Assembly (NCBI RefSeq): GCF_020520425.1
Contig: NC_079492.1
Location: 1,736,001 to 1,800,000, forward strand
DNA length: 64,000 bases
From: Spinacia oleracea
Lineage: Eukaryota > Streptophyta > Magnoliopsida > Caryophyllales > Amaranthaceae
Direction of reading: 5' to 3'
Program-made: the position numbers and the translations under genes
Part shown: positions 1-60,475 of the stretch, piece by piece
How the letters are laid out: the number at the start of each line of letters is the position of its first letter
Numbering within the stretch: the stretch's first letter is position 1
The notes under the pieces: generated by a model
What the model saw: the letters and a program-made list of their open reading frames with translations, nothing else
Told to the model about the DNA's origin: nothing
Databases searched by the model: none

Positions 1-338
1 CAGGTCGCTATCTAACCACAAGGGACCTACCAGATCGTACCCTTGGATTGGTCTATATAAGGAGCACCTCATTTATTGCTATGAGGTACACAAACACTTA
101 AACACACTTCTTTCTTACTCCCTAATCATCTCTTAATCTCTCAGTAATCTTACTTAAGCATCGGAGGGGGAATCCTCGAACCACCCCGAGGCTAGTTAAT
201 CCATTCTGTTGTGCAGATATCAACCGGCAATCTCGACAGGAATCCAGTATCCCACAGTCAACTGTTCTCATTCCACACCCGGAACAATTAGGAATCCAGT
301 ATCCCACAGTCAACTGTTCTCATTCCACACCCGGAACA
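1..338 (+). repeat. Left LTR of the Tat/Retand-like gypsy element (3' part only)
   Basis: This stretch matches the last 349 bases of the right LTR (22585-22933) almost base for base. I count three substitutions and one 11-bp indel (an extra copy of a TCATCTCTTA-type unit in the right LTR). It ends in ACA just before the primer-binding site. A TATA-like TATATAAGGAG lies near 54-64, so the promoter and R-U5 are present while the U3 start is outside the window. A 52-bp unit at 238-289 is repeated at 290-340, and the same duplication is in the right LTR, so it predates insertion. Confidence 0.93.
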
Positions 339-340
339 AT

Positions 341-358
341 TGGCGCTAGAAGGAGGGG
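341..358 (+). other. Primer-binding site of the gypsy element
   Basis: TGGCGCTAGAAGGAGGGG lies two bases after the LTR end. A TGG start directly downstream of the 5' LTR is the usual complement of a tRNA CCA tail priming minus-strand synthesis. I do not assign the tRNA species. Confidence 0.8.
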
Positions 359-3209: not shown

Positions 3210-5040
3210 GCCATGTGACTACCCCGAATGGCTGGCAAACGTGGTAATGGTAAAAAAGTCAAGTGGGTCATGGAGAATGTGCGTAGATTTCACCAACCTT
3301 AACAGAGCATGTCCGAAAGATTTCTACCCACTGCCACGGATTGATAGACTGGTAGACTCCACTAGCGGTCATGCAATGCTCAGTTTCCTAGATGCTTTCT
3401 CAGGGTATCATCAGGTCAGCCTGCATAAATCAGACAGGAAGAAGGCGGCCTTTATCACAGATGCAGGAGTTTTCTGTTATAAGGCGATGCCGTTCGGGTT
3501 GAAAAATGCAGGGGCAACATATCAAAGGCTGGTTGACAAGGTGTTTGCCGACCAAAAAGGCAGAAACGTGGAGGTCTATGTAGATGACTCTATCGTAAAA
3601 AGCCGGAAGGAGGAGGATCATGTTAGCGACCTCCGAGAAACTTTTGAAACTTTGAGAAAATACAGGATGAAATTAAACCCAAAAAAATGCGTCTTCGGAG
3701 TAAGATCGGGAAAATTCCTGGGTTTCTTGGTCAGCGAGCGTGGCATAGACGCTAACCCTGAAAAAGTAGAAGCAATCATCAGTCTGCCGCAACCCAAGAG
3801 CGTAAAAGACATACAGCGGCTGACAGGAAAAATGGCCGCCTTAAACAGATTTGTGAGCAAATCGGCAGATAAGCAAATGCCCTTCTTCACAACCCTGAGG
3901 CAAAACAAGAAGTTCAAATGGGGGCCGGCAGAGCAAGAGGCCTTTGAAGCTCTAAAAAGTCACTTAAAGAACCTGCCAACAATAGCAAGGGCAAAAGAGG
4001 GCGGCAAATTACAACTGTACATATCGGCGTCGCCAAAGACTGTTGCAGCAGTACTGGTAGCCGAAACAGAGAACAAAGGGCAGCAGCCGGTATATTTTGT
4101 GAGCCATGTGCTAAACGGCCCAGAAACAAGGTACACGTTGGTGGAAAAAATGGCATATGCAGTCCTCATCGCGGCTAGAAAGTTAAGACCATACTTTGAT
4201 GCGCATACAATCGAAGTGCTAACAAACTTTCCACTCGAAAAAGCCATCAGCAAGCTAGATACATCAGGCCGGTTGCTAAAATGGGCAATAGAGTTGTCCG
4301 AGTTTGACTTGGAATTCCGGCCAAGAACTGCAATCAAAGCCCAGGCATTGGCGGACTTCATAGTTGAAGCGTCATACCAAGAAGATGAAGTACAAGCTGA
4401 AGTATGGGATGTGTCAGTGGATGGTTCAGCTGCACAGACAGGCAGTGGGGCTGGAATAATCATGAAATCGCCAGCAGGAGACATTTTTGAGTATGCTATA
4501 AAGTTTACGTTCAACGCGTCAAATAACGAGGCAGAATACGAGGCAGCAATTGCCGGCATCCAAATGTGCCTCGCAGCAGATGCCAAAAGAGTAATACTGA
4601 CAACAGACTCCCAGCTGGTAGCAAGTCAATTCAGCGGAGAATATGAGGCCAAAGAACCTTCGATGGTCAAATACCTGGAGAAGTTGAGGTCGGTGTCGGC
4701 TCAGCTAGAGAAATTCAGCATTAATCTGGTACCCCGAGCAGAGAACACACTGGCAGACGCCCTATCAAAGTTAGCAAGTTCAAATGTCGCCGACTTGAAA
4801 AGAACAGTCATGATGGAAGTCATGAATAAGCGAAGTACGGAGTCGGAGATAATACGGGTCATGGCCATCACAACCACCTCAGAATGGTACGATAATATCC
4901 AAACATACATACAGACTGGAGCCCTACCAGCAGATTTTGCAGAGGCCAAAAAGACAAGAAGGGACTCGGTTTGGTACATCATCCTGTGGGGACGGTTGTA
5001 CAAAAAGTCATTTAGACAGCATTCGAGTCAGCAAGGCTGA
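3187..5040 (+). pseudogene. Gypsy pol: reverse transcriptase, RNase H and archaeal-type RNase H
   Basis: The reading frame enters at about 3187 by frameshift from gag-pro, and an ATG at 3241 is internal to the domain. RT motifs are clear: WRMCVDFTNLNRACPKD, FSGYHQV, MPFGLKNAGATYQ and the catalytic YVDD at about 3577. A decayed first RNase H (AAVLVAE, KLRPYFDAH) follows. From about 4400 there is a second RNase H with four acidic positions: VDGSAAQTGSGAGI, NNEAEYEA, TTDSQLVASQF and ADALSKLAS. This additional archaeal-type RNase H is the hallmark of the Tat/Ogre/Retand lineage. A second frameshift near 5010-5025 separates it from integrase, so as read this copy cannot make a full polyprotein. 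Confidence 0.9.
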
Positions 5041-6098
5041 TCGAAGAGATGCACGAAGGAACATGTGGGAACCATGCCGGTGGAAAACCCCTTGCCATCA
5101 TCTGTCAAAGGCAAGGCTATTACTGGCCAACAATGTTAGAAGATTGTCGAGCTTATGTAAAAAAGTGCGAGAAATGTCAAAAGTTTTCAGCTGTGATAAA
5201 CTTGCCGGCCAATGATTTGATGCCCATTCTGAACCCAATCCCATTCGCACAATGGGGAATGGATATTGTTGGACCATTCCCAATGGCGGCTGGAGGGCGC
5301 AAGTTCTTGATAGTAGCAGTGGACTACTTCACCAAGTGGATAGAAGCAGAGCCGGTAGCAAAAATAACGGCAAACCAGGTGAAAAAATTCATATGGAAAA
5401 ATATAATAACGAGATTCGGGCTGCCGCAGGCAATAGTTTTTGATCATGGATCACAGTTTGATTGTGCACCCATACAATGCTTCCTGGGATTATACAGAGT
5501 AAAGTTAGCTCACTCATCAGTATGTCACCCACAGAGCAATGGGCAAGCAGAGGCGGCGAATAAGCAAATCCTGGCTGCTCTGAAAAAGAAACTAGAAGAC
5601 TGTAAAGGCAAATGGGCAGATCTTATGCCAGAAATTCTGTGGTGCAACAGAACTGCTATCAAGGAGGCTACCGGCGAGAGTCCGTTCAAATTGAGCTTCG
5701 GGTCTGAGGCTGTCATACCGGCAGAAATGGCTCTGCCAACCATGCGAATCCAGCACTACGATGAGGAGAGAAACGATCAGCTGCTGCGACACCAGTTGGA
5801 TTTCATGCCAGAAATCCGCATGAAAGCAGAAGTAAGTTCGGCAGCATACAAAAGCAGAATGAGCAGAGCATACAACAAGAAAGTGAAGCATCGGCCTCTA
5901 GGAGTGGGAGACCTGGTACTGCGGAGAACGGCGGCAACAGGAAAAGGAAATGCTCAAGGAAAGCTGACAGCCAATTGGGAAGGACCATACCAGATATGGG
6001 AGGAAATAGTTCCTGGATCATACCGGTTAATGCAAATGGATGGTACCGCGCTCAAAAACTCCTGGAACGCCAGTACTCTGAGAAAGTACTATGTTTGA
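5022..6098 (+). pseudogene. Gypsy integrase
   Basis: The frame is open from about 5022 (upstream of the ATG at 5049). The N-terminal zinc-binding HHCC unit is visible (MHEGTCGNH, then CEKCQKF). The catalytic core has the first Asp in WGMDIVGPFP, the second in IVFDHGSQFD and the Glu in CHPQSNGQAEAANKQ. The C-terminal part (GDLVLRR, ANWEGPYQI, LRKYYV) is typical of plant gypsy integrases. It ends at a TGA at 6096-6098, well ahead of the tandem array. The domain is complete but cut off from RT by a one-base frame loss. Confidence 0.9.
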
Positions 6099-6256
6099 AA
6101 AACTATAATGATTATGTATGAGCAGACTGATTGCAATAGCAGTCTGCATTTTGCTGTTATGTATAATTAGGGCGGTCCTCAAATACGGCCAGTCCATAAA
6201 TGAAGGAAGAAAAAAGCAAAAAACAAACGCGGCACAAATCAACACACAAAGGTAAT

Positions 6257-7370
6257 GTATGGATGTGATCAGTAGCAGTAAAGAAAATAAATGCCGTCTG
6301 GGCACTTTACTGTGAAGCGTAGCAGTCCATAATAAAGTTGTTGTGATTAGTAGCTTTGGAGAAAATAAATGCCGTTAAGGGGCACTCCATTGTGAAGCGT
6401 AGCATTCAACGAAGTGTATGGATGTGATCAGTAGCAGTAAAGAAAATAAATGTCGTCTGGGCACTTTACTGTGAAGCGTAGCAGTCCATAATAAAGTTGT
6501 TGTGATTAGTAGCTTTGGAGAAAATAAATGCCGTTAAGGGACACTCCATTGTGAAGCGTAGCATTCAACGAAGTGTATGGATGTGATCAGTAGCAGTAAA
6601 GAAAATAAATGCCGTCTGGGCACTTTACTGTGAAGCGTAGCAGTCCATAATAAAGTTGTTGTGATTAGTAGCTTTGGAGAAAATAAATGCCGTTAAGGGG
6701 CACTCCATTGTGAAGCGTAGCATTCAACGAAGTGTATGGATGTGATCAGTAGCAGTAAAGAAAATAAATGCCGTCTGGGCACTTTACTGTGAAGCGTAGC
6801 AGTCCATAATAAAGTTGTTGTGATTAGTAGCTTTGGAGAAAATAAATGCCGTTAAGGGGCACTCCATTGTGAAGCGTAGCATTCAACGAAGTGTATGGAT
6901 GTGATCAGTAGCAGTAAAGAAAATAAATGCCGTCTGGGCACTTTACTGTGAAGCGTAGCAGTCCATAATAAAGTTGTTGTGATTAGTAACTTTGGAGAAA
7001 ATAAATGCCGTTAAGGGGCACTCCATTGTGAAGCGTAGCATTCAACGAAGTGTATGGATGTGATCAGTAGCAGTAAAGAAAATAAATGCCGTTTGGGCAC
7101 TTTACTGTGAAGCGTAGCAGTCCATAATAAAGTTGTTGTGATTAGTAACTTTGGAGAAAATAAATGCCGTTAAGGGGCACTCCATTGTGAAGCGTAGCAT
7201 TCAACGAAGTGTATGGATGTGATCAGTAGCAGTAAAGAAAATAAATGCCGTTTGGGCACTTTACTGTGAAGCGTAGCAGTCCATAATAAAGTTGTTGTGA
7301 TTAGTAACTTTGGAGAAAATAAATGCCGTTAAGGGGCACTCCACTGTGAAGCGTAGCATTCAACAAAGTG
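6257..7370 (+). repeat. Seven 159-bp tandem repeats inside the gypsy element
   Basis: Copies start at 6257, 6416, 6575, 6734, 6893, 7052 and 7211, so the period is exactly 159 in every step. Copies differ by only a few substitutions (for example GTCTGGG versus GTTTGGG, and TAGCTTT versus TAACTTT in later copies). Each unit is itself a diverged dimer: both halves share GAAAATAAATGCCGT and TGTGAAGCGTAGCA about 80 bases apart. The array lies in the untranslated region between integrase and the antisense gene. An amplified tandem repeat in this position is known from Retand of Silene. Confidence 0.95.
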
Positions 7371-7791: not shown

Positions 7792-8339
7792 TCAAACGGC
7801 AGGCTCATCATCAGACCAATAAGCTGCTTCCGGGACATCCAAAGGAGGCAGGGTCCTCTGATTAGCATTGCAAATCACCGCCTCGGGTAGCTCCTGAGGC
7901 TCAAAGCCGGTTGCAACCTTGTACAGCTCTTTCTCCTCATAGCCATCTTCAAACTCTTGCCAGCCATCCTCGTCCAGCTTCTTCACATGGCAAACGACTC
8001 GATGTGCAGCACACCAACCGCCGTTATGGCGCAAAGTCAGAATGTCGTTAAACCAGTCAGACTGGAGAAGTTTATCAACGGCTTTCTTGGCGGCAGATTT
8101 CTTTACGCCCGGCAAGCTTGCATTAATACTTGCCAGCTGTTGATCCAAACCGTCTGCTCTCTCAGCCTCAGCCTGCAGCTTTGGCTCAATATCACTGAGC
8201 CGTTTATTAGCCGCCTCCAAATCAGAAGCCGCAGCATCCAACTTCTTCTTGCTGTCTTCCAGCAAAGACTCAACATCCTCAGCCCGCTTCCTCAAATCGG
8301 CCATATCAATGTTATTCTGAGTCAGCTGCAGCTGGTTCC
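7792..8339 (-). pseudogene. Antisense gypsy gene, 3' coding part cut off by copia insertion
   Basis: Open reading frame on the minus strand ending at 7792. The first 105 or so residues are a strong coiled coil rich in Leu, Glu, Lys and Ala (DLRKRAEDVESLLEDSKKKL and onward). They are followed by a short globular part (SDWFNDILTLRHNGGWCAAH) and an acidic tail ending in DDEPAV. It is the downstream part of the antisense gene whose upstream exons are at 18847-21424. The copia element lies between them. Directly joining exon 3 to this part in the phase of exon 2 gives an early stop, so the original splice phase or a frameshift remains open. Confidence 0.7.
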
Positions 8340-9753
8340 TGAAGGAAATAATGCCCTTGGTCCAAGTATGCATTCTATGTTAAGTCTAATAAATGCGGTT
8401 CAGTATTAATTAACAAGTTAATAATTCAGTGAGATCAAGTGAGCTGAATGCCTAGCTAGAGGCCGCTTCAGTTCAAGTGGAATTAATAATATTAATCCAC
8501 AGCTTACTCTTGACTGAACCCGTAGGGTCACACAAATAGTACGTAAACGGATCAAGTATTTAATGGCATTAAATACTCCATCTATGAATATTCGGAACCG
8601 ACGGATCTTGGTTTCAGTGGGAGCTAAGATCGTCACAGGCAAGAAATGAATACTCCGGAAACGATGATATTGCCGGAAACGAAAATATGGATCGTATCGG
8701 AAATATAAATATTATCCAAGTCGTAGATGTTGCCGGAAACGGAAACATGGTACGTATCGGAAAATATTATCGGAAATGGAAATATTGCCAGAATCGGAAA
8801 TATTGCCGGAAACGGAAATATTGTCAGAATCGGAAATATTACCGGAATCGGAAAATAATTCCGGAAACGGAAATATTAAATATTTGTTCGAAACGGAAAT
8901 TAATTCCGGAATCGGAAATATTAAATATTGTTCGTATCGGAAATGAATTCCGGAATCGGAAAATTTAATCGGAAGCGCATCGTACGAATAAGCATCGGAC
9001 GAGGCCTGCCGGACGAGGCCCAGCACGAAGCCAGGCCATCGCCCAGCAAGCCAAGTGCGCCGCACAAACAGCCACGCCAGGCCCAGCGCAAGGCCAGGCC
9101 CAGCAGGCTGCGCAGCGCGCACAGCACGCACAGCACGCGCAGCGCGCAGCGCGCGCGGGCGCTGCGTGGGCTGCTGCTCGCGCGCACGCATGGGGGCCCA
9201 TCGTGGCTGCCGTGCGTGTGTGTGCAAGTGTTTGTGTTCGTGCACGTTTCCTAAAACATGCACAGTTCGGTTAATGATTAAATTCCTAATTCTATTTGAT
9301 AAATTAATTAAATTAGAGTTCTTGTAGGATTCTAGGTTTAATTAATTTGTATCTAAATAGGATTTCGATTCCCTTTCCATACCCCTATAAATATGAGGCT
9401 AGGGCTCACAATTTATAATAAGTTTAAAAGTATTCAAAAGTGAGTTTTTTTGAGAGAAAATTAAAACACACATCTTGCTCATAAAAGTGCCGAAATTTTC
9501 TAGTACCTTAAGGGCGATTCTAGTTGGTCAATCTTAAGGCGGATCCGGACGTGCTGTGGACTATCTACGGAGGGACGACACTTGGAGTCCTAAAGACTTG
9601 TTCTTGTTCGGTTCGGGCGCAGCTAGGGAGGGCACGCAACAAAGAGTATGCATCTAAATTATGCTATATGATTATGTGTAAATAATATGTTGTCCTGGGT
9701 TAATGGTTGTTTCCGCATGATCTATGTAATGTCATATGTATCATAACCTAACA
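8340..9753 (+). repeat. Copia 5' LTR
   Basis: Starts TGAAGGAAATAATGCCC and ends CCTAACA. About 8640-8970 is a cluster of CGGAAA/CCGGAA motifs with a loose 11-18 base spacing. About 9000-9240 is a GC-rich block of GCGCGC, CAGCACGC and GCCAGGCC words. A TATA box CTATAAATAT lies at 9385-9394, so transcription probably starts about 30 bases later. No protein is credible here, although the GC-rich block is open in several frames. Confidence 0.93.
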
Positions 9754-9754
9754 G

Positions 9755-9770
9755 TGGTATCACGAGCCCC
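9755..9770 (+). other. Copia primer-binding site
   Basis: TGGTATCACGAGCCCC follows the LTR end after one base. It resembles TGGTATCAGAGC, the site complementary to initiator tRNA-Met used by most plant copia elements, with a change after TGGTATCA. Confidence 0.8.
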
Positions 9771-12581
9771 TTATTATTTTCATAATCTAAATTGCATGAA
9801 CATGGTTAAATATTACAAATTTGCAAGAATTAAAAGGGGTGATTAATTTTCGTAATTGTTAATTAATTGCAAATTGCGTTTATTTAATTATACGTACGCA
9901 GTTTTTCGGCAGTTTCTTCGTTACTCATCCGAATTGAGTGATTTTTGTGTCAATTCCGCATGTAAAAGGCATTCTAAAATTTTGACAAAAATAGTATTTT
10001 TCTGCCGAACCCAGAATTCTCAAATTCGAAGCTTAACTATGACTTTTCGAAGGTTTTAGTTTTTCGAATGCAAAATTTCGTAAATTTAAGATGTTAAATT
10101 AAATATTTGCGATTCTTGTTGATAAATCTTGAATTTTTGATTGACCTACTGCATATGTTTAACAAGTTTGAATGCCTAGTCTTGTTAATTATGCAATCTA
10201 ATTTGTAATTATGATTAATTTGTTGAAAATTAGAATAATTTAGAATAAATTTGATTTTCATAATTAATTGTAATTTAATTAGAAACCTATGATTAAAAAC
10301 CACCATAAAAATTGTAAATTTATGATAAATTTTAAATTTTTATGACCTAGACTTGAATCCATAACAATCGGAAATCAATTGGATAATAAATTTTCGATTT
10401 TTCGCCCTAAAATTATGAAATTAATATTATTTATTAATTTGTCATTAATTTTAAATATAAATTTTAAATTTTTATGCGATTCGTTCATAAAACTTGCACG
10501 CACGAAGCAATGGACGCTTCGTGTTACCCTTAAGGGGTGTTGTATAATGCGGGCATGCGACGACGAGCAAGGGAGCTCGTCGCCCGTGCGGCACGAATGC
10601 AATGAGCAAGGGCGTAGTGCACGAGCACAAGGCAGCAGCCCTGCCTTGTGTCGTGTGCCACGAGCAATGGACGAATGGGCATGGGCGAAGGGCGAGCCAA
10701 GGCAGTCGCGTGTGGGCAGCAAGCGAGCTGCGCCACAACGCGCGCTGCCTCGCACAAGAGCGCGCAGCCTCGCGCGCAGCGAGCGCAAGCTCGCGTGCCA
10801 CGAGCGCTGCGCCCAGCATTGCTCGCGCGCACAACGAGCGAGGACTCGCGCGCACAGCCAGCATTGCTCGCGCGCACAACGAGCGATGTCGTGCGCCCAG
10901 CGAGCGATGGCTCGCGCGCCCAGCGAGCGATGTCGCGCGCCCAGCGAGCGATGTCGCGCGCGCACTGCGAGCGATAGCTCGCGTGCGATGAGCGCTGGCG
11001 CGCGCAGCGAGCACCAATGCGTGCGGAGGCTTGCGATGGGGATGCAGCAGCTATGCGACGAGCGCATGGGCTGCGCGCACATGGCCAGCAATGGTTGTGT
11101 GCGTGCGGCCCATGGGCGTGCAATGTGTAGGGTGTTTGCGTTACGATTAAAGATCGTTTTGAATGTTTAATTTGAAAATTTCAGTTCACGTAATTTTAAT
11201 TAATTTTAAAATTAATAATTTAAATTATTTTCTTGGATTTTAATTTTGAATATTGTAATTATAATAAATGTTATTTATTCTAATTATTTTACTAAAATTA
11301 AAATCATGAATTAATTTAAATACGACTGAAATTAAATTAAACTTTTTGGATTCAATTATAAATTGATATGAGCTTTAAATTTTAATTAAATTTGTATGTT
11401 TCCGGTTGGACTAGAAATACATTTTTATGTTTAAAATTAGTAAAGCATATAAATTTATTGGTTTAAGTGGGAGCGCTTTTAGTCATAAACTCTTGATTAG
11501 GTCTACAAATCCTTAAGGTTAAAACAACTTGATTAGAATTTAATAAGGACTGAATAATTGGTAGATTATTGGTGCCCTTGATTAATTGCTGCAAATGTTT
11601 ACGTGATGCATAATGTGTTTTACTAACCAGCTATGTGGGCCATTCATGATAATGAATGGGTGAATGGTATATATTGTATATGTATTGTTTTGCAGGTTAT
11701 GAAGTGACTAGTATGGCCCAAATAGGATAGAAAATATGGTCTGCGTACCATTAATTTGAATGTAATTGGTCTAAAGTACCAAAGTTATTTTTCAATTCAA
11801 ATATGGTCTGCGTACCATCAAATAGTTGTAATTAGTTATAACTTATCCTATTTGAAGAAAATGGAACCTCCCACGGAGATTTTCAAGACGGACTTTGAAG
11901 TCAAAGCTTCAAGATGAAGTCGGGCCATACTAGATCACATTTATCTTATGCATGTTTTAAGTTATTTATTGTTTTAAATATGTCTTAAAATGCATGAGAT
12001 CAAAAGCTTGATTATGTTGCATGATTAAGGATTTTAGTTCACTTAAAATCTAACCAACATAGTAAGAGCCTTAAGTTCCAAACTTAAAAATTGAGTTAAA
12101 AGGTGCCATGCCAAAATATACACTTGCTTGGATATCCTTTACATCAATCTAGTAATAGTTTTCGCTCAGCGAGGTGTTACTTATTGGTCCTAAAGGGGCA
12201 AGGTACACAAATAATTGTGAGTACATGTTAGTTTTGGTGAAACTCAACGATATAAGTAAGGAGTCCTTTTATGTCGTGGCAAATTCGATAGGTTTACCTA
12301 ATAAGTTCTTAGACGTACCTATCAACCAAGAATAGTTTCTAGACTATTAGCAAAAGGCTTTTGCTTACCTAAGATGTTCTAGGATTAAGTCGACAAACTG
12401 TGCTTAGTTCTTCAATGATTTTAGGATCTTGGAATCATTTTATTCACACCTGCCGGAACACATAATTTGAATAAAATGCTTAATAAACATTGAATTATGC
12501 ATGTATGCTAGAATTTAAGTTTATTAAGAGAAACTGTGAATGGTTATTTATTTGTTTATTCTTTTCAATTGTAGTTTTAAT
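9771..12581 (+). other. Copia 5' leader with internal GC-rich repeat island
   Basis: This 2.8-kb leader between primer-binding site and gag is strongly AT-rich except for about 10540-11120. That island consists of imperfect repeats around GCGAGCGATG and GCGCGCACAACGAGC. Open frames occur there on both strands (10375-11170), but their proteins are low-complexity Ala/Arg/Ser/Cys strings that change wholesale with frame, so I treat it as non-coding. Positions 11740 and 11802 repeat ATATGGTCTGCGTACCAT. Confidence 0.75.
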
Positions 12582-15500
12582 ATGGCAAACAACAATCAAA
12601 ACATCATCATGGGTTCTGAGCTTATGGTCAAGCTGAACCTGACAAATTTTCTTGAATGGGAAGCTAAGCTAGTTGAAATAGTCAAACTCAATGGACTTGA
12701 GTATGTACTGTCACATCCCATGCCAAGCTACTATGCCAGAGACATGACCCCTGAGAGATTTTACGCCTGGGATGCGGATCTCAAAAAGGTTATGAGTCTC
12801 ATGCTGAACAATATCCCTGATGATTGGGCTAAAAGGTTTGTAGCCTATGAACCTTTTACGCTCATCAAGAATCTGAGGGATATCTGTCGTGGAAGTACGG
12901 AGGACAGGGACCTGAACGTCCATGAGTTGATTGAATCAATGTCTGGTCTAAAGGTTAGTTCTCCCAACAGGTGTTATAGGATGGAGGTCCAAGAAACACA
13001 TGTTCAGCTCCTTCGCACTAAACAGAGGGTAGGCGTCCCACTGAGGTTCCATGTGGATCTTATGTGTTCATATTTTGATCGCCTAAGTCTACTAGGAACA
13101 CCAATAAGCGAAAGGATGGCAGTCTCTGTCTTGCTCAATTCACTACACAGTGGGTTTGGTCGCTTCAAGCAACTATACCTAAGTGAACCAAGAGAAGAAA
13201 CAGTTGCAGAATTTATTCACCTTGTCAGAAAGGCTGAAATAGTACTGGACTGTGAAGCCAAAGATTTACTCAAGGCTAGAAAGAGACCATTCAAGAAAGG
13301 TGGAAAGTCCAAGGGCAATGCTAAATCAAAGCAGGACAAGTCCACATCAAGCTGTCTTTATTGTGATGGAATAGGCCATTACAAAAGAGAATGTCCAAAG
13401 CTAAAGGAAGATCAGAAGAACGGAACAGTCGTTCCATCTTCAGGTATTTTCGTTATAGACTGTATACTTGCTAATTCAACTTCTTGGGTATTAGATACAG
13501 GTTGTGGCTCACACTTATGTTCCAATCCACAGGGACTAAGAAGAAGTAGAAAGTTAAGCAAGGGTGAAGTCGACCTACGAGTGGGAAATGGAGCACGGAT
13601 TGCTGCATTAGCTGTAGGAACTTACTATTTGTCGTTGCCCTCCGGGCTAGTTTTGGAACTGGAAGAATGTTTCCATGTTCCAAATCTTACTAAAAACATC
13701 ATTTCAGTTTCTTGCTTAGATGCTAAGGGATTTTCCTTTTTAATAAAAGACAATAGTTGTTCGTTTTATTTTAAAGAGATGTTTTATGGATCTGCTAGAT
13801 TAGTCAATGGACTTTATTTATTAGATCACGACAAACAAGTATATAACATAAATACCAAAAAGGCCAAAAAGGATGATTCAGATCTCACCTATCTGTGGCA
13901 TTGTCGATTAGGCCATATAAACTTGAAACGCTTAGAAAGACTTCAAAGGGAAGGAATTCTAGAACCATTTGACTTAGAGGATTATGGTAAATGCGAATCA
14001 TGTTTACTTGGCAAAATGACAAAGCAACCTTTCTCTAAAGTTGGAGAAAGAGCAAATGAACTATTGGGTTTAATCCATACAGATGTATGTGGACCAATGA
14101 GTACAAATGCTAGAGGTGGTTTCAGCTACTTTATCACTTTCACTGATGACTTCAGTAGGTATGGTTATGTCTACCTAATGAAGCATAAGTCTGAATCCTT
14201 TGACAAATTCAAGGAATTTCAGAGTGAAGTAGAGAATCAATTAGGCAAGAAGATTAAGGCACTGCGGTCTGATAGAGGCGGTGAATATCTGAGCTATGAA
14301 TTTGATGACCATCTGAAAGAATGTGGAATTCTATCAGAATTGACTCCTCCTGGAACACCACAATGGAACGGTGTGTCAGAACGGAGGAACAGAACCTTGC
14401 TAGACATGGTCAGGTCAATGATGGGTCAGGCCGAACTTCCATTAGAATTTTGGGGACATGCACTAAATACAGCTGCACTCACTATAAATAGAGCTCCGTC
14501 TAAAGCTGTCGAAAAGACTCCATACGAATTATGGTTTGGAAAGCCTCCAAATGTGTCTTTTCTTAAGATTTGGGGATGTGAAGTATACGTCAAACGATTA
14601 ATTTCAGACAAACTTCATCCAAAATCTGACAAATGTATCCTTGTGGGCTATCCAAAGGAAACAAAGGGGTATTACTTCTACAATACATCTGAGAACAAAG
14701 TGTTTGTTGCTCGAGATGGTGTCTTTTTGGAGAAGGATCACATTTCCAAAATGACAAGTGGGAGAAAAGTAGACCTCGAAGAAATTCGAGTCGAACAACA
14801 AACTCTAGAGAATGCTCAAGATGACATTCAGGATGAAACTCAGAGATCTTTAGAAGAATCTGGTGAGAATCATGGTCAATCTAGAAATGTTACCCCGCGT
14901 AGATCGCAAAGATACAGATCTCAACCGGAAAGGTACTTAGGTATTTTGACGAACGAGAGCTATGACGTTCTATTACTTGAAAGTGATGAACCTGCGACTT
15001 ACAAGCAAGCTATGACGAGCCCTAGCTCCAAGCAGTGGCAAGAAGCCATGCAATCTGAATTAGACTCCATGTCTGAAAACCAAGTATGGGAGTTGGTCGA
15101 TTTGCCAGATGGCTACCAAGCCATTGGAAGCAAATGGGTTTTCAAACTGAAAAAGGACAAGGATGGGAAACTTGAAGTTTTCAAAGCTAGATTGGTCGCA
15201 AAAGGTTACAGGCAAGTCCACGGTGTGGATTACGATGAAACCTTTTCACCAGTTGCAATGCTAAAGTCTATTCGAATAATGTTAGCAATCGCTGCATATT
15301 ACGATTACGAAATATGGCAGATGGATGTCAAAACTGCTTTCTTAAATGGCGTTTTAACAGAAACTGTGTTTATGACACAGCCTGAAGGTTTTGAGGATCC
15401 AAAGAATGCTAAAAAGGTATGCAAGCTAAAGAAGTCAATCTACGGTTTGAAGCAGGCATCCAGGAGCTGGAATATACGTTTTGATGAAGCAGTCAGTGAC

Positions 15501-16568
15501 TTTGGTTTCATCAAGAACGCAGACGAATCTTGTGTATACAAGAAGGTCAGTGGGAGCAAAATTGCTTTCCTAGTATTATATGTCGACGACATATTGCTTA
15601 TCGGAAATGACATTCCTATGTTGAACTCTGTCAAGATTTGGCTTGGGAAATGTTTTTCGATGAAGGATCTAGGAGAAGCACAGTACATATTGGGCATCAA
15701 GATTTACAGAGATAGATCTAAAAAGATGATTGGACTTAGTCAAAGCACTTATATCAATAAGGTGCTTGATAGGTTCAAGATGGCGGACTCCAAGCGAGGC
15801 TACCTACCCATGTCTCATGGAATGACTCTAAGCAAGACTCAGTGCCCAAAAACACTTGATGAGCGTAGACGAATGAATGGGATTCCATATGCATCATTGA
15901 TTGGTTCAATAATGTATGCTATGATATGTACACGCCCGGATGTTGCGTACGCACTCAGTGCTACGAGCAGATACCAGTCAGACCCAGGAGAGGCGCATTG
16001 GAGTGCTGCCAAGAATATTCTGAAGTACCTGAAAAGGCACAAAGATGACTTCCTGGTCTATGGTGGAGATGATGAATTAATTGTTAAAGGCTATACGGAC
16101 GCAAGTTTCCAAACCGACAAAGATGATTTTAGATCACAGTCTGGGTTTGTCTTCTGCCTCAACGGAGGAGCAGTAAGCTGGAAAAGTGCTAAGCAAAGCA
16201 CCATTGCGGATTCTACAACTGAAGCGGAGTACATTGCTGCACATGAAGCAGCAAAGGAAGCTATATGGCTAAGGAAGTTCATAGGAGAACTTGGTGTAGT
16301 CCCCTCCATTAAAGGACCAATAGCCCTGTATTGTGATAATAATGGAGCTATTGCACAGGCAAAAGAGCCTAGACACCACCAGAGAGTCAAGCATGTACTT
16401 CGTAGATTTCACCTTCTACGAGAGTTCGTTGAAAGAAAAGAAGTCGAGATAAGCAAAATTGGAACTGATGACAACATATCAGATCCATTAACTAAACCTC
16501 TGCCGCAGGCGAAGCACAACTCGCACACTGCAGCTATGGGAATCAAGCATATTGGAGAATGGCTTTGA
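12582..16568 (+). CDS. Copia gag-pol polyprotein, uninterrupted
   Basis: The longest frame starts at 12540, but the ATG at 12582 (MANNNQNIIMGSEL) is the likelier start because the preceding residues look like translated leader. It gives 1328 aa. Order: gag; CCHC knuckle CLYCDGIGHYKREC from residue 258; protease WVLDTGCGSHLC with Asp at 305; GAG-pre-integrase (LWHCRLGHIN); integrase with first Asp in HTDVCGP at 501, then RSDRGGEY and PQWNGVSERRNR supplying the second Asp and the Glu; RT with KARLVAKGY, MDVKTAFLNG and YVDD from residue 1000; RNase H with STTEAEYIAA and LYCDNNGAI. All catalytic residues I can check are present and there is no stop or frameshift, so this copy may be autonomous. 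Confidence 0.95.
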   Translation: MANNNQNIIMGSELMVKLNLTNFLEWEAKLVEIVKLNGLEYVLSHPMPSYYARDMTPERFYAWDADLKKVMSLMLNNIPDDWAKRFVAYEPFTLIKNLRDICRGSTEDRDLNVHELIESMSGLKVSSPNRCYRMEVQETHVQLLRTKQRVGVPLRFHVDLMCSYFDRLSLLGTPISERMAVSVLLNSLHSGFGRFKQLYLSEPREETVAEFIHLVRKAEIVLDCEAKDLLKARKRPFKKGGKSKGNAKSKQDKSTSSCLYCDGIGHYKRECPKLKEDQKNGTVVPSSGIFVIDCILANSTSWVLDTGCGSHLCSNPQGLRRSRKLSKGEVDLRVGNGARIAALAVGTYYLSLPSGLVLELEECFHVPNLTKNIISVSCLDAKGFSFLIKDNSCSFYFKEMFYGSARLVNGLYLLDHDKQVYNINTKKAKKDDSDLTYLWHCRLGHINLKRLERLQREGILEPFDLEDYGKCESCLLGKMTKQPFSKVGERANELLGLIHTDVCGPMSTNARGGFSYFITFTDDFSRYGYVYLMKHKSESFDKFKEFQSEVENQLGKKIKALRSDRGGEYLSYEFDDHLKECGILSELTPPGTPQWNGVSERRNRTLLDMVRSMMGQAELPLEFWGHALNTAALTINRAPSKAVEKTPYELWFGKPPNVSFLKIWGCEVYVKRLISDKLHPKSDKCILVGYPKETKGYYFYNTSENKVFVARDGVFLEKDHISKMTSGRKVDLEEIRVEQQTLENAQDDIQDETQRSLEESGENHGQSRNVTPRRSQRYRSQPERYLGILTNESYDVLLLESDEPATYKQAMTSPSSKQWQEAMQSELDSMSENQVWELVDLPDGYQAIGSKWVFKLKKDKDGKLEVFKARLVAKGYRQVHGVDYDETFSPVAMLKSIRIMLAIAAYYDYEIWQMDVKTAFLNGVLTETVFMTQPEGFEDPKNAKKVCKLKKSIYGLKQASRSWNIRFDEAVSDFGFIKNADESCVYKKVSGSKIAFLVLYVDDILLIGNDIPMLNSVKIWLGKCFSMKDLGEAQYILGIKIYRDRSKKMIGLSQSTYINKVLDRFKMADSKRGYLPMSHGMTLSKTQCPKTLDERRRMNGIPYASLIGSIMYAMICTRPDVAYALSATSRYQSDPGEAHWSAAKNILKYLKRHKDDFLVYGGDDELIVKGYTDASFQTDKDDFRSQSGFVFCLNGGAVSWKSAKQSTIADSTTEAEYIAAHEAAKEAIWLRKFIGELGVVPSIKGPIALYCDNNGAIAQAKEPRHHQRVKHVLRRFHLLREFVERKEVEISKIGTDDNISDPLTKPLPQAKHNSHTAAMGIKHIGEWL

Positions 16569-17432
16569 TGTCTCTGTTTAATGTTTTAAAGTTTTAGAGT
16601 TTAAATCTTTGTAAAACATTATTGGTTAATCATTCACAATAAATGAAAAGAATTCATTTTTCCATTTAATTTGTGGTTTATTAAATGATGAGTCCCTTCA
16701 ATTTGACGATATATTCAAGATAGACTGTCAGGACCAGTCCTGTGACTAAGAAATGTCTATCAAGTGAACTTGAATGTCAAAGGTTGAAAATGGTCCCTAA
16801 TCTAAGTTTTCTATAAAATTGGACGCATAGAAAACGTTAAACGATTAGAATGCAAGATGACTAGTAGTTCTGTTTCTTGAACTATGTGGACATGGCAATG
16901 TCATAATCATTTGCATAGATACTTACTTTGGGAAGACTAGTATCGGACAAGACCTATGAAACTTTACTGTAAGAGATGAAAATCTGTCATGAGTAAATTT
17001 CATTAAATTATTAGACACTAAATCCTCAATACCTGAGTGATTTGAGATTACTTGTTTGAGAACTGGTTGCTTTGACGTTGACCAACCGTCGCACCGTAAA
17101 AGGAGGCTATAAAGGCAACGCTCAGGTAATCACCTATCAAACGAAGTCTAATCTCAAGATCGCAAGATTGGGATTGTCCTCCCATAAATCGGGATGAGAT
17201 GCTTAAAAGTTGTACAAGGCCACTCGGAGAGCTAGAAACTGTGAAATGCATGGCCGTGCTCGGATGAATCATAGGCTATGATTATCTGTTTATTTGATCA
17301 GTTGAACTCTGAAACCGAGGAACACCTCTGGACGTAATAAGGATGACAACTCTTACCTTATGTTCAAGAGCAAGCACCGAGCGACAAAGGAATTAGGAAA
17401 TGCACACTTGTCCCTAAGGACAAGTGGGAGAC
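16569..17432 (+). other. Copia 3' untranslated region and polypurine tract
   Basis: About 860 bases without a coding frame between the gag-pol stop and the 3' LTR. The final purine-rich AAGTGGGAGAC directly before 17433 is the expected plus-strand primer. No other feature is seen. Confidence 0.7.
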
Positions 17433-18846
17433 TGAAGGAAATAATGCCCTTGGTCCAAGTATGCATTCTATGTTAAGTCTAATAAATGCGGTTCAGTATT
17501 AATTAACAAGTTAATAATTCAGTGAGATCAAGTGAGCTGAATGCCTAGCTAGAGGCCGCTTCAGTTCAAGTGGAATTAATAATATTAATCCACAGCTTAC
17601 TCTTGACTGAACCCGTAGGGTCACACAAATAGTACGTAAACGGATCAAGTATTTAATGGCATTAAATACTCCATCTATGAATATTCGGAACCGACGGATC
17701 TTGGTTTCAGTGGGAGCTAAGATCGTCACAGGCAAGAAATGAATACTCCGGAAACGATGATATTGCCGGAAACGGAAATATGGATCGTATCGGAAATATA
17801 AATATTATCCAAGTCGTAGATGTTGCCGGAAACGGAAACATGGTACGTATCGGAAAATATTATCGGAAATGGAAATATTGCCAGAATCGGAAATATTGCC
17901 GGAAACGGAAATATTGTCAGAATCGGAAATATTACCGGAATCGGAAAATAATTCCGGAAACGGAAATATTAAATATTTGTTCGAAACGGAAATTAATTCC
18001 GGAATCAGAAATATTAAATATTGTTCGTATCGGAAATGAATTCCGGAATCGGAAAATTTAATCGGAAGCGCATCGTACGAATAAGCATCGGACGAGGCCT
18101 GCCGGACGAGGCCCAGCACGAAGCCAGGCCATCGCCCAGCAAGCCAAGTGCGCCGCACAAACAGCCACGCCAGGCCCAGCGCAAGGCCAGGCCCAGCAGG
18201 CTGCGCAGCGCGCACAGCACGCACAGCACGCGCAGCGCGCAGCGCGCGCGGGCGCTGCGTGGGCTGCTGCTCGCGCGCACGCATGGGGGCCCATCGTGGC
18301 TGCCGTGCGTGTGTGTGCAAGTGTTTGTGTTCGTGCACGTTTCCTAAAACATGCAGAGTTCGGTTAATGATTAAATTCCTAATTCTATTTGATAAATTAA
18401 TTAAATTAGAGTTCTTGTAGGATTCTAGGTTTAATTAATTTGTATCTAAATAGGATTTCGATTCCCTTTCCATACCCCTATAAATATGAGGCTAGGGCTC
18501 ACAATTTATAATAAGTTTAAAAGTATTCAAAAGTGAGTTTTTTTGAGAGAAAATTAAAACACACATCTTGCTCATAAAAGTGCCGAAATTTTCTAGTACC
18601 TTAAGGGCGATTCTAGTTGGTCAATCTTAAGGCGGATCCGGACGTGCTGTGGACTATCTACGGAGGGACGACACTTGGAGTCCTAAAGACTTGTTCTTGT
18701 TCGGTTCGGGCGCAGCTAGGGAGGGCACGCAACAAAGAGTATGCATCTAAATTATGCTATATGATTATGTGTAAATAATATGTTGTCCTGGGTTAATGGT
18801 TGTTTCCGCATGATCTATGTAATGTCATATGTATCATAACCTAACA
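17433..18846 (+). repeat. Copia 3' LTR
   Basis: Same length as the 5' LTR, with three differences seen on reading through. It carries the same CGGAAA motif cluster, GC-rich block and TATA box (about 18478-18487). It is followed directly by the interrupted antisense gypsy gene. Confidence 0.94.
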
Positions 18847-21424
18847 GCAGCGGTAAACGTAGTACAGATCCATGCTGGACTGAACGGCCTGAAAATAAAA
18901 CAAGGAAGGGAATCAAAATAGCCCTCAACCGGAAAAACATATTGCAAATAAAAAATATATGCGTATAATAAATGTATACACAAGATAACATACCTTGTAG
19001 AGGTCATTAAAGTGTTGAGCAGCAGGGGCATCAATCTGACCTTGTGGCCTGTCAGCAGGCGTAATCAAATCTTTAAAGGCACGGTAGCCTAAGTCGCCAC
19101 CGTCCTTAGCTGAATCAGTAGCCACCGACTCCCCACACAACAGGTCAATGGTGGGATAAAACTGGTCGGTAGGTTCGCCGCCAGGAGTCTCGAACCATGG
19201 CTTCATTTGCGGTGGAATCTTGAAAGGAGTATCCTCGATCCAACCACCGGTGCGGAGGGGTAGGTGATAATTCAGCCTAGAATCCCCAGACTTGTTCTCG
19301 CTGCGACTGACGGGAGGCATACTAGAATTACCACCGGTAACAGCAGCAGAAGTAGCTTGCCGGTGGAAGTCCTCAATAAAACCGCCGACAGGACCCTCGT
19401 CCAAAATCTCAATAGACGCTGGTGGAGACGGCTGCGCCTGAAGGGCGGTTTCAGTAGTTTTCTTGGCAGCAGACTCCAAGACCGGCTCATTTGCCTCGTG
19501 ATCGGCGTAAGCATCATCCTCACCAGTGCCCCTTGCCCTCTTAGTCGGATTAGACCGACTGGAATTAAGAGACGACCTTTTCCGGCGGGTTCCACCTCGG
19601 CCTGTGGGATTGGACTGCATTGTGGATGAAGGCGGAGCTTGAGAAACAACGACAGAGGAGGATTTGGATTTGCAGGCGGCACTCACACGATTCTTTGCAA
19701 CAGTGGTAGTAGAGCGACGAGAGGAAGCTCGGGTCGAATACGTTGCTATTGTGTCGTATTTAGCTTTAGGTTGAGGAGGCTGCGTGCACACAGGTCTCCA
19801 ATTCTCGTCAAAACCAAGAAGGTCCCTATCCAAGGTTTTCGTACCTGAAAAAGACGACAAAGGAATTAATACCGGAAAGACACTTGTACAAAATAAAAAA
19901 ATTGATTATTTTCAGGCGGGCAAATCAACTAATGATGTGTTTACCAAAGCAATGAGTATTGCATAAGCCGACAGCAGACAACGGTTGGCTACCCAAAATA
20001 TAATAGGCATTAGGAAGCCAATTTCTATTTACAGCCTGCTTCTTGCTGAGGCCGACTTCAAGAATGTCGCACTCTAAATAATCAAATGCTTTTCTCTCCC
20101 GGCGGCCCAAACCACGCTGGTTATACTGCTCCATTCGAGGCCTAGGTTTGGTAAAAGTCCGCCGAAGAAGAAAAGTGTCGGGAACTTGAACAAAATAAAA
20201 ACGATCCTGCCAGTCTTTACAACTCGACAGCGGCGGATGCACAGTCTTCCTTTTTGTTGCACTATAGGCCGACATCCACCCCGTCTCACCGTCCTTCTTT
20301 AGCCACAGCAATCGCTTGAATAAATTTAATGTCAGCGGCCATTGCTTAAACAGACACAGCCAGACGAAAGAAATAACGGTTCTGATAGTAGTAGGTGTAA
20401 CCTGGGCCAAACAAACATTCCAGGCGCGAAATATCTTCTCAACGAAAGGATGCAAAGGAAAGCGAAGCCCAAAATCAAAATGCTTCGCATAAACAGCAAT
20501 ATGGCCGGGAGGGCAATCAAAAATTGTAGCACCTTCAGCCGGCACTACCAATTTATATTCAGCAGGTAAGCCAAGAAAAACCCCCCCATGTACTACATGA
20601 TTCTTCTTAATAATCAAATCGCGCCATGTCGTCAAAATCTTTGTCGTGCGAGGAAGAGTCTCTAAAGGGGGAAGCTCTTCTTTCCTGTGAACGTCCGTGG
20701 AGTCGTCGGTAAAATAAGGCTGCTCCTTACCCTCATCCGCGAGAACTTCGGCCACTATAATATCGGCAGGGTCATCATCATCTGAGCCAATACCCTCATC
20801 GTTGGCTTCCACACCCTCATCGTTGATTTCCATACCGTCTCCACCAGACACGCCGGCTTCATCGCCACCACCACTTCTGTGTTCGTCAACACCCTTACCG
20901 GCGGAATCCTCAAAAATGGAATCACCATCAGAATATTCCCCAATAGCAATACCAACGTCGTCAGTAGCAGGCTCTTTACCAGGGCGGCGACCGCTAGTGC
21001 TAGCCGGTTGTTCTGGTGCCATCCTATCAGCCTGACCAAAAGAAACACCGAGGTTGCCAGTATTAGTTCCATACTGTCCATGGCCACTACCGGCGGAATC
21101 CAAAAATTCGCGATAAGAGCGAATGTGATACCGCACTGAAATAGGGGAGACATCTAAAGCGGCCTCGGTAGCCGGAGTAGGGCGTTCTTTAGATCGCGTT
21201 TCCCTTATCATTCGAGACCGCAGTTGATGTAGGGCAAAGCAACGCTCTCTCTCAGCCTGACTCAAACCCTCGTCATACACCTCACGAATGGCGGTTCGTC
21301 TTAAATTAGATTGAAAGTACGGCTCCTCCCGGGCCCAACTACAATTACTCTCTCGAGGAACACTCCAACCAGAAAACCCAGAAGGTTGAGAAGAAGGATT
21401 GTCCCCGCCCAAAGTTTTGGTCAT
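18847..21424 (-). pseudogene. Antisense spliced gene of the gypsy element (5' exons)
   Basis: Read on the minus strand, exon 1 starts at ATG 21424 (MTKTLGGDNPSSQPSG; an earlier ATG at 21472 is possible) and ends at 19993. A 148-bp GT-AG intron (19992-19845) joins in phase to exon 2 (19844-18994), and a second GT-AG intron (18993-18889) leads to a 42-base exon 3 cut by the copia element. Exon 1 has a Ser/Gly/Asp-rich N-terminus and then a domain around residues 275-430 (PPGHIAVYAKHFDFGLRFPL, LWLKKDGETGW) that resembles the plant family called putative gypsy-type transposon (Transposase_28). Exon 2 is basic and Ser-rich (SRSNPTKRARGTG). Its function is unknown. Antisense extra genes are known in some Tat-type elements. 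Confidence 0.7.
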
Positions 21425-21472
21425 TTTCGAGGCGGCGGGTAGTAAAAAGTAAAACACAACAAAGAAAAGCAA

Positions 21473-22026
21473 AAGCTAAGTAATCAAAGAGGAGCAGAAA
21501 AGAGGGGGGGGATACCTACGAATTTTCTGAAGTTTGAAATACAATGAACCACGTCAAAGAGAAACACAGAAAAAACCTACAAAAAACACAGAAACAAAGA
21601 AAAATCAACCACAAGGATAAGAGAGGGGAAGGAAAACCCAGAATTCAGCAACGAAAGGAAAAGAGGCTAAGAACCTTAGCAAGTACAAATCACCACAACA
21701 GCAAAGACTGGGTAAAACAGCAACGGAGTTCAACGCAAAACCGCAAGGGAAGAAAGAGAAATCGAAAATTCAAACGAAGTAAAAGTGGTTAAAAAAGTAA
21801 AGTCTCGAAGAAGTTTTGGGGTCTTATAGGTCAAAGAAGGGGGATGTGAAAGGTCATGCCCCTTAAGTCGAGCAGTTGAAGAGACAGTTACGATCGAAAT
21901 CAACGGCCCAAAATAAGCACAAAAAATAAGGCACAGGATGAAGGCCACGTGGAGGAACGTGGCTAGCAATCTCCCGCCACTTGTAGGGAAAAAATTCGAA
22001 AAGCGGTAGTCATCTGAAGTATTCCC
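21473..22026. other. Gypsy spacer upstream of the antisense gene
   Basis: Purine-rich on the + strand and without a convincing coding frame. By position it should hold the promoter and 5' untranslated region of the antisense gene, but I see no clear TATA box. It ends where the 28-30-bp repeat array begins. Confidence 0.4.
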
Positions 22027-22200
22027 AAGGGGGCTAGTCGTCAGAATCTTTTACAAGGGGGCTAGTCGTCCAAACGGCAATTTCAAGGGGGCTAGTCGTC
22101 CAAACCTTTTACAAGGGGGCTAGTCGTCCAACCCTTTTTCAAGGGGGCTAGTCGTCAAAATCTTTTTCCAAGGGGGCCAGTCGTCCAAATATTTTTTCCA
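22027..22200 (+). repeat. Six-copy 28-30-bp array carrying the PPT core
   Basis: Units begin AAGGGGGCTAGTCGTC at 22027, 22055, 22085, 22113 and 22141, with a variant AAGGGGGCCAGTCGTCC at 22170. The spacing is 28-30 bases. The core GGGGGCTAGT is the same word as in the polypurine tract right next to the LTR at 22410-22418. The array is unrelated to the 159-bp array. Confidence 0.92.
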
Positions 22201-22365
22201 AAAGGACCTAGCAACAAAGTTATTCATTCAGAGCGAAGGCAGTCGTCAAACTGTTCGCGGTCTTTTCTCATAAACACTCGCAACACAGTCAGCACCTGCG
22301 CTTCACTCTGAGGGGGCTAGTTGTACCACCAGGTATCAAAATAATACTTATTTTTTCCCATTAAA

Positions 22366-22418
22366 CTCAGAGCAAGCGCAACAATGGTCATATATGCGCT
22401 TACTCTGAGGGGGCTAGT
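22366..22418 (+). promoter_or_regulatory. Hairpin and polypurine tract before the right LTR
   Basis: Arms 22366-22380 and 22395-22409 pair at 14 of 15 positions around a 14-base loop. The second arm runs into GGGGGCTAGT and then the LTR (TGTACGGGG at 22419). A similar, looser module with arms near 22229-22242 and 22295-22311 ends in the same CTCTGAGGGGGCTAGTTGTAC at about 22309-22326. The G-rich tract is the expected plus-strand primer. Confidence 0.75.
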
Positions 22419-22933
22419 TGTACGGGGTGTCCTACCGGCACCACCTGGTACCGGCAGAACTCCCCGTATGTAAACTTAACCTGCAGGTAACCTGGTCATC
22501 TTAGGTAAATATCCTCTACCGGCATTTTTGCAAGACAGCCTACCGGCATTATCATGAAGACAACCAACCAAGGGTCACTATCAACAGGTCGCTATCTAAC
22601 TACAAGGGACCTACCAGATCGTACCCTTGGATTGGTCTATATAAGGAGCACCTCATTTATTGTTATGAGGTACACAAACACTTAAACACACTTCTTTCTT
22701 ACTCCCTAATCATCTCTTAATCATCTCTTAATCTCTCAGTAATCTTACTTAAGCATCGGAGGGGGAATCCTCGAACCACCCCGAGGCTAGTTAATCCATT
22801 CTGTTGTGCAGATATCAACCGGCAATCTCGACAGGAATCCAGTATCCCACAGTCAACTGTTCTCATTCCACACCCGGGACAATTAGGAATCCAGTATCCC
22901 ACAGTCAACTGTTCTCATTCCACACCCGGAACA
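22419..22933 (+). repeat. Right LTR of the gypsy element
   Basis: 515 bases from TGTACGGGG to CGGAACA, with short inverted ends TGT...ACA. Its last 349 bases match the left LTR at 1-338 with about 1% substitutions. The bases after it, ACTAC, are the presumed target duplication, but the matching left copy is outside the window. The TATA-like TATATAAGGAG is at about 22638-22648. The LTR ends about 0.7 kb before the likely transcription start of the OSCA gene, in the same orientation. Confidence 0.93.
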
Positions 22934-23640
22934 ACTACCTTTTGTTTGGAGTATGTAATTTGCTTCCTAATCATTTAATAATATTTTTTCCTTAAGTTTT
23001 TAAGATTGTATCAATTCAATATGTATGCTTTATATTTGTGAGACGAATGTGCTACGTATTTTGTTCATAAACCAAAAAATAGATTTTGCCACAAAATATG
23101 TAGGCAATTAAATAAAAAGATTGTTTATTTTCATTTTTACGCAAACCTTCTTATTTCTACATTATTTTTTTATTTTTAATAATTCTAAAAAGATTGTTTA
23201 TTTACATTTCTAAGCAAACCTTCTTCTTATTGCATGCTAAATAAAAAAAATAAAAAATAATACCTTGTGAATTGTAATACTCCGTAGGTTAGAATCCTTT
23301 TAAATCTATTTTTTATGGGTTCTTTTAAAACGTTAATTGTACATCGTTTTTTCAAATTTAAAACAAAATCACATACATTTAGATTTAGTACTCCACTACT
23401 CTGTATCATGTTCGCTCACGAGTCACGAGGAGATATGTTATCTTTTTATTACCAAAACTCAAACTATTTTTTGCATTTTTTCATCTTCTAGCAGTTCTAG
23501 GGAACTATGGACGTAGTTATAAAAGGAAATAAATAAATACCGTATTTATTAAATTGTAAATATATACCGAGTAACTAATACGGAGTACTCCATACTTTAT
23601 ACACTTATACGTTCTCCCCACCAAAAATCAGTTATTCTTC
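22934..23640 (+). promoter_or_regulatory. Upstream region of the OSCA-type gene
   Basis: AT-rich, no gene. It contains a direct repeat (AAAAAGATTGTTTATTT at 23116 and 23189 regions). A CT-rich stretch typical of a plant 5' untranslated region starts near 23640. TATATACC near 23563 is a possible TATA box. The start site is inferred, not seen. Confidence 0.4.
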
Positions 23641-59470: not shown

Positions 59471-60475
59471 TTAGGATGTAGCTCATAGAATAAAGTCTAG
59501 GTGGCTAAAATGGAGAGCGGTCACTTAAGATCTTAGTTTACAGTGTACTGCAAGACACCCACCGGTCATCCGTACATATGCAAGAAGACAACCAGGACAA
59601 CAGGGACCTGTGAGTACAGCAGCAGCAGCCCCTTTATCAGAAGCAAGGAACCACCTCAACTAGTGGAGGCAATGGTTTTATGCGTTAAGACTTTTTGTCT
59701 GGTATAAGTTACCATTTTGTCTGTAGTACTATTCTTAATTAGTTTTGTCTTATGTTGTGTTGTGTGGGATTAAAAGGGAAGGGAAGGGAAAACAAATGGC
59801 ATCTCAAGTATTGTAATAGTTTTGGGAGAGACAGAACCTCTCGAATCGAATGTCCTTGGTGTAACCTAAGCTTTATGCTCTATCAATATACAAACAACCA
59901 TCCTTTCCATAATTATGTGAGTTCACTGTGTGTGAGTTGTGAGCAAGAATTGAGTTCTTTGCATGTACCTTTAAGGTTAAAAGGAATTTCTATAGGATGC
60001 CAATTCAACCGACATTATTATATGGATTAGAATGTTTGGTATTTAGGAAGGAGCATATTAAAAATATTGTAGCAGAGATATGTATGTTGGGATGGATTTG
60101 TACGGGCACCTTGAGGGATATAATTAAGAATTTAGATATTTTGGGGAAGTTGGGGATGTGGATATTAAGGATAAGATAAGAGAGAATCGGCGACGTTGGT
60201 TTAGGCATGTAAGACGCAAGAAGATGCACTCGTAAGGAAGGTGGAGATCTCAAATGCAATCGAGGAGGCCAAAGATGATTTGGATAGAGGGAGTTAAAAA
60301 GGATATGGAGAAAGTGGGGTTGCAAGATGATATACCATTAGATGGAAGCTAATGGAGGTGGAGGATATTTGTGGATGACCACACATGTGACAGACTCTCG
60401 GTTCATGCAACCGACCCATGTCTTTGGGAATTAGGCTATGATTTTGTTGTTGTTGATATGCAACAACCTTGCGGA
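59471..60475 (+). mobile_element. RTE-type LINE 3' fragment, split by a solo LTR
   Basis: The coding relic before the LTR (GCSS, NKV, VAKMESGHLRS) and after it (LRLKGISIGCQF, PTLLYGLECLVFRKEH, EICMLGWICTGTLRDIIKNL, then RRRWFRHVRRKK out of frame) matches the C-terminal region of plant RTE RT proteins. It ends with the RTE-type tail CATGCAACCGACCCATGTC and GATTTTGTTGTTGTTG. Stops and frameshifts show it is dead. A second copy begins at about 63524. Confidence 0.83.
59549..59963. repeat. Solo LTR with 5-bp target duplication
   Basis: 415 bases starting TGCAAGAC and ending CTTTGCA, flanked on both sides by TGTAC (59544-59548 and 59964-59968). Removing it with one TGTAC restores the RTE sequence as seen in the other RTE copy (CTTAAGATCGTAGTGTACCTTTAAGG at 63897-63922 region). 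TG...CA ends and a 5-bp duplication fit a solo LTR left by recombination. The parent family is not identified. Confidence 0.85.

Follow-up and report, generated by a model that had tools for sequence, protein, structure and literature searches.

Antisense open reading frames (ORFs) with a TRP28 domain are characteristic of Retand elements; 97% of Retand clusters have them, and their products are predicted to bind DNA (Vicient 2025, PMC11963269). The sequence-only reading of the locus described here, which had called an antisense gene in a retrotransposon unusual, therefore put it too strongly, at least by the figures in the parts of that survey covered here. Its Table 1 includes a cluster from Spinacia oleracea. 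Two described systems resemble our locus, in a comparison by description only: gene23 of maize Grande is an antisense gene in a long 3' region, and the Retand element of Silene latifolia combines an antisense TRP28 ORF (ORF4, with Transposase_28) with an amplified tandem repeat in that region (both PMC7264820). An own promoter and nuclear localization have been reported for the antisense gene of Grande, and the same 2020 review calls for attention to spliced antisense transcripts (PMC7264820). HBZ of HTLV-1 (PMC11963269) can be added as an analogy in mode of action, as an antisense nuclear factor of a retroelement, with no homology claimed. The Retand survey relied on ORF Finder and, in the parts covered, mentions no introns and treats TRP28 and Smc-like ORFs as separate, whereas in our locus both look like exons of one gene. 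The kind of gene is already known, but we did not find its intron structure, or the exchange of old gene versions reported below, described in the covered parts of the literature (PMC11963269, PMC7264820, PMC6317226, PMC12786077, PMC11728184, PMC9289625, PMC7840529). Splicing may be described in the original accounts of Grande, RIRE2, Silene Retand and plant extra ORFs (Steinbauerova 2011).

The window is a stretch of 64,000 nucleotides of S. oleracea DNA, and its first 22.9 kb are filled by one Ty3/gypsy element. The window starts inside the 5' LTR, the tail of which (1-341, plus strand) pairs with 22585-22934 at 336 identical sites of 339 aligned, plus one 11-nt indel; the 3' LTR lies at about 22419-22934 (plus), its start having been read by eye. 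The ORF at 3160-5040 (plus) encodes reverse transcriptase (RT), RNase H and a second, archaeal-type RNase H (Pfam RVT_1, RT_RNaseH and RVT_3, in that order), and the integrase (Integrase_H2C2, rve) lies in another frame in this copy, at 5016-6098 (plus). The gag-pol frame is broken in the window copy, with 626 amino acids open around the RT compared to up to 1914 elsewhere. The second RNase H sits between RNase H and integrase (RT_RNaseH at 283-382 and RVT_3 at 420-538 of the 3160-5040 ORF), which is a feature of Ogre and Retand (PMC6317226). Without a nested copia element, the region between pol and the 3' LTR measures ∼5.8 kb and the 3' LTR ∼515 bp, both inside the ranges given for Retand (2.9-6.6 kb and 315-1194 bp; PMC11963269). 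As in Retand elements, this region contains an antisense TRP28 ORF. It also contains two tandem arrays, seven copies of a 159-bp unit at 6256-7370 (plus) and about six copies of a 28-bp polypurine-like unit at 22026-22196 (plus); such arrays are found there in about half of the Retand elements, although the 159-bp unit exceeds the 8-100 bp reported (PMC11963269). Another genomic copy, L074, has the same array with a 158-bp unit. By domain order and layout of this region, we classify the outer element as a Retand-like Ty3/gypsy element. The 28-bp array resembles a polypurine tract plus LTR border in repeated form (AAGGGGGCTAGTCGTC) and is longer in a copy with a diverged gene version (L075:772-1334).

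The copia element occupies 8340-18846 (plus), with LTRs at 8340-9753 and 17433-18846 and a polyprotein ORF at 12540-16568. The insertion, whose LTRs differ at 3 of 1414 sites, is young. No 5-bp target duplication was seen around it, despite the nearly identical LTRs.

The antisense gene lies between pol and the 3' LTR and comprises three exons and two introns, with the copia element splitting exon 3. An open frame of 499 codons starts on the minus strand with an ATG at 21424 and is part of a 516-codon stop-to-stop frame. None of 500 dinucleotide shuffles of 18849-22418 reached this length (the largest frame had 265 codons). Exon 1 (19945-21424, minus) matches Transposase_28 (PF04195) at residues 311-376 with 35.3 bits (curated cut-off 26.2, E 1.3e-8). 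The Pfam check proposed in the sequence-only reading was thus positive, but the domain, which had been placed at the N-terminus, sits in the second half of exon 1. Four of the six positions conserved in TRP28 (G21, P25, L34, P46, N47, F55; PMC11963269) fit in an alignment anchored by a spacing search that was itself set for G, P, P and F and matched at residue 319; at the other two positions, 34 and 47, the protein has F and T, respectively. A chance open frame is refuted by the shuffles, the PF04195 match and the dN/dS values given below; we found no point in its favor and give it next to no credence.

Exon 2 (18994-19844, minus) starts basic and Ser-rich, as had been read from the sequence: its first 110 residues have a pI of 10.94 and 16% Ser and contain Arg/Lys clusters, which could serve as a nuclear signal. 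Exon 3 consists of an upstream piece (18847-18888, minus) and a downstream piece with the stop codon (7792-8339, minus). In genomic copies without the copia element the two are continuous, and 44 of the 47 aligned copies have an unbroken exon 3 of 588 nt, so that the assignment of 7792-8339 to the same gene holds. The coiled coil proposed for it is likely, if tentatively so: exon 3 matches 17 Pfam families, mostly coiled-coil ones, none above its cut-off (best E 0.003). According to this gene model, surveys that count TRP28 and Smc-like antisense ORFs separately may be counting exons of a single gene. By position, 21425-21992 (minus) would contain the leader and promoter region; the T content of the antisense strand is 0.497 in 21425-21800.

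A codon model trained on the copia element ranked the proposed frame first in all three exons and was correct on both of its controls. The gypsy-trained model favored the proposed frame in exon 3 but not in exons 1 and 2, and failed its own control too. No relatives were confirmed in viral contigs or GTDB genomes, and a PDB sequence search gave two weak matches (E 0.041 and 0.16). An AlphaFold model of the second half of exon 1 (238 residues), made without an alignment, reached a pLDDT of 33 and was discarded.

To study the introns, we collected the gene stretch from 53 copies in this genome (894 Mb, 242 contigs) and aligned 47 of them; the other six (L017, L034, L046, L048, L053, L058) were truncated, interrupted or wrong-ended. 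Intron 2 (18889-18993, minus), which the sequence-only reading had overlooked, has the borders AAG|GTATGT...TTTTCAG, with GT and AG in 47/47 copies and a length of 77 to 128 nt. For intron 1, the acceptor at 19845 is AG in all 46 copies that contain the region (it is missing in L060). Two candidate donors are in phase with this acceptor, one at 19992 (GT in 45/46 copies) and one at 19944 (46/46). Pairing with U1 is about equal (−5.9 and −5.3 kcal/mol, respectively) and does not decide between them. Within the exons, GT is kept in all copies at 52 of 151 places and AG at 62 of 192. Therefore, conservation of the borders alone is modest evidence, and indels say more. Relative to copy L009, indels occur in 38/45 copies within the last 100 nt of intron 1 and in 39/45 within intron 2, compared to 3/45 in exon 3. 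They are found in 25/45 copies in exon 1 and 18/45 in exon 2, both far longer stretches; per 100 nt, the indel density is 0.04-0.06 in these two exons versus 1.7 and 3.2 in the introns.

The 48 nt (16 codons) between the two donors show no indel in any of the 45 copies and 8-9 synonymous versus 2 replacement differences (Fisher p 2e-6 to 2e-5, in 4/4 pairs). Because this stretch evolves as codons and without indels, intron 1 is most likely the 100-nt GT-AG intron at 19845-19944 (minus). The earlier proposal of an intron from 19992 to 19845 was right in phase, border type and acceptor, but its donor is the less likely one.

We then compared the copies for selection on the protein. They form a group A (window-like), a group B (diverged) and a group C of two intermediates (L043, L061). 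The main comparison included 29 A and 13 B copies; the mosaics L019 and L020 as well as L060 were left out and the two intermediates kept apart. Of the 47 copies, 21 have an unbroken joined frame; an earlier run took 18 of them, with L014, L016 and L024 omitted for no stated reason, and the mosaic L019 was also missing from its A × B tables. The smaller and larger A × B runs gave the same picture. Between A and B, dN/dS was 0.09 in exon 1 (first 477 codons), 0.04 for residues 241-477, 0.16 in exon 2 and 0.13 in exon 3, at a dS of 0.68-0.95. The pairs, having a single long branch in common, do not count as independent. The corresponding A × C values were 0.18, 0.11, 0.20 and 0.17. The proposed frame had the lowest dN/dS of the six in 12/12 comparisons; one reverse frame came second each time, as expected where third positions coincide.

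Since the A × B values are far below 1, they indicate that purifying selection acted on the protein across all three exons. The sequence-only reading had named dN/dS near 1 between copies, alongside an absence of antisense spliced reads, as what would speak against the gene; the dN/dS values obtained, together with the kept GT-AG introns, the long frame and the PF04195 match, support its central claim that a gypsy element carries an antisense gene that codes for a protein and is spliced. The RT/RNase H ORF has a dN/dS of 0.12 (35 pairs). Whether Retand antisense ORFs do anything is thereby answered at the level of selection, with values close to those of the element's own RT/RNase H. Within the groups, dN/dS is high: 0.69 in exon 3 and 0.64 in the N-terminal half of exon 1 within B, and 0.53 in that half within A. 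This is as expected if recent copies drift, and suggests that the lineage is selected, not each copy.

These values also bear on the possibility, raised in PMC7264820, that the protein is incidental and the useful product is the antisense RNA, acting as dsRNA, as siRNA or through transcriptional interference. We consider this improbable and the RNA unlikely as the sole function, as dN/dS ranges from 0.04 to 0.20 in eight A × B and A × C comparisons whereas the introns differ between A and B by 0.40-0.43 per site.

Having introns, as host genes do, the gene could alternatively have been captured from the host, as the sequence-only reading had suggested. Against such an origin, at least 150 places in the genome give a PF04195 score (150 of 2698 first-look candidates scored), and the gene occupies one fixed place relative to pol. 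Among gene-RT pairs within 25 kb, drawn from the best-scoring candidates of two hit lists (best 89 of 3203 and best 70 of 15658), gene and RT lie on opposite strands in 62/62 and the gene is downstream of the RT in 61; the remaining pair joins two neighboring elements. Moreover, PMC11963269 states that its survey met with no similarity to TRP28 outside transposable elements. On these genomic and published data, a captured host gene is very unlikely.

We instead favor, with some confidence in the explanation as a whole, an antisense accessory gene of a Retand-like Ty3/gypsy element, most likely with a nuclear, nucleic-acid-binding role. The gene would have a promoter of its own close to the 3' LTR, and its transcript would be spliced; separate antisense transcription would be needed because the GT-AG polarity of the borders exists only on the antisense strand. 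In the genomic RNA the introns read CT-AC, so they would remain unspliced there and, the gene being antisense to this RNA, survive retrotransposition. The product of ∼970 amino acids would combine the TRP28 domain, a basic stretch possibly targeting the nucleus and a coiled coil for self-association. Its most likely job would be that of an accessory protein acting in the nucleus on the element's own DNA or chromatin. As suggested earlier, the gene may regulate the element.

The divergence between groups A and B is far greater in the gene than in pol: dS is ∼0.7 in exon 1 but 0.065 in RT/RNase H (7 × 5 copies, 35 pairs). At a substitution rate of 1.3e-8 per site per year, these divergences would date, very roughly, to ∼26 and ∼2.5 million years, respectively. 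In 12 copies with both pieces, the trees of exon 1 and exon 3 each separate A from B with support of 100/100. The RT tree of the same copies mixes A and B and needs five version changes, at least four of which are imposed by well-supported branches; B as a single clade is rejected (log-likelihood lower by 171.6, p-AU 2.6e-122). Over 61 gene-RT pairs from the best-scoring candidates, RT identity and gene identity showed no significant link (Spearman 0.17, p 0.18). Because the RT tree mixes the versions and rejects one origin for B, these trees show that two or more old versions of the gene share a single pool of near-identical pol sequences and that the cassette has been exchanged repeatedly. 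No report of old antisense gene versions on one pol was found in the covered parts of the literature listed above. In our opinion, this exchange is the part most worth the attention of specialists. Recurring as it did on a single pol background, it offers a natural experiment in what this gene specifies.

On the pol side, one B element (L074 on this flank) is 95-100% identical to the window in all 100-bp bins between 5015 and 7300. The 159-bp array ends in the bin that starts at 7301, and the six bins from there on show 75, 80, 82, 82, 90 and 81%. On the far side (L075), the same element is 77-85% identical at 21451-21975, 87-93% at 21976-22500 and 84-98% at 22501-22777, where the middle range spans the 28-bp array and contains long gaps, the array being longer in B. 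In this profile of one B copy, the greatest A/B difference falls between the two tandem arrays, and identity climbs at or near the array on each side. Other copies are mosaic. L019 and L020 are 99-100% identical to L009 up to gene position ∼2074 and B-like beyond, and L054-L057 are A-like (91-97%) from ∼1624 to 2074 and B-like on either side. Recombination therefore also hits within the gene, and the A/B joins inside it fall mostly in exon 2. Exchange probably proceeded by template switching during reverse transcription.

The same data fit two old element families in which recombination or gene conversion has homogenized pol, the antisense gene being in no way special, given that gene and pol histories alone are known to differ; in L019-L020 and L054-L057, moreover, the exchange falls inside the gene too. 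The at least four forced version changes of the RT tree mean that exchange was repeated, yet a neutral reading is still compatible with this, and we lean towards it. A more far-reaching idea, which we regard as rather doubtful, is that the gene is an exchangeable specificity module, in which at least two old versions would be kept together in one element pool while template switching, frequently at the arrays on either side, reshuffled them, and the carrier of the rarer version would gain, e.g., by escape from host silencing or by non-interference with sibling elements. If true, the module would be the retrotransposon counterpart of a balanced allele system.

Outside the outer element, two 89-nt stretches of the window (59964-60052 and 63912-64000) are 98% alike; they lie 3948 bases apart, and the second reaches the window end.
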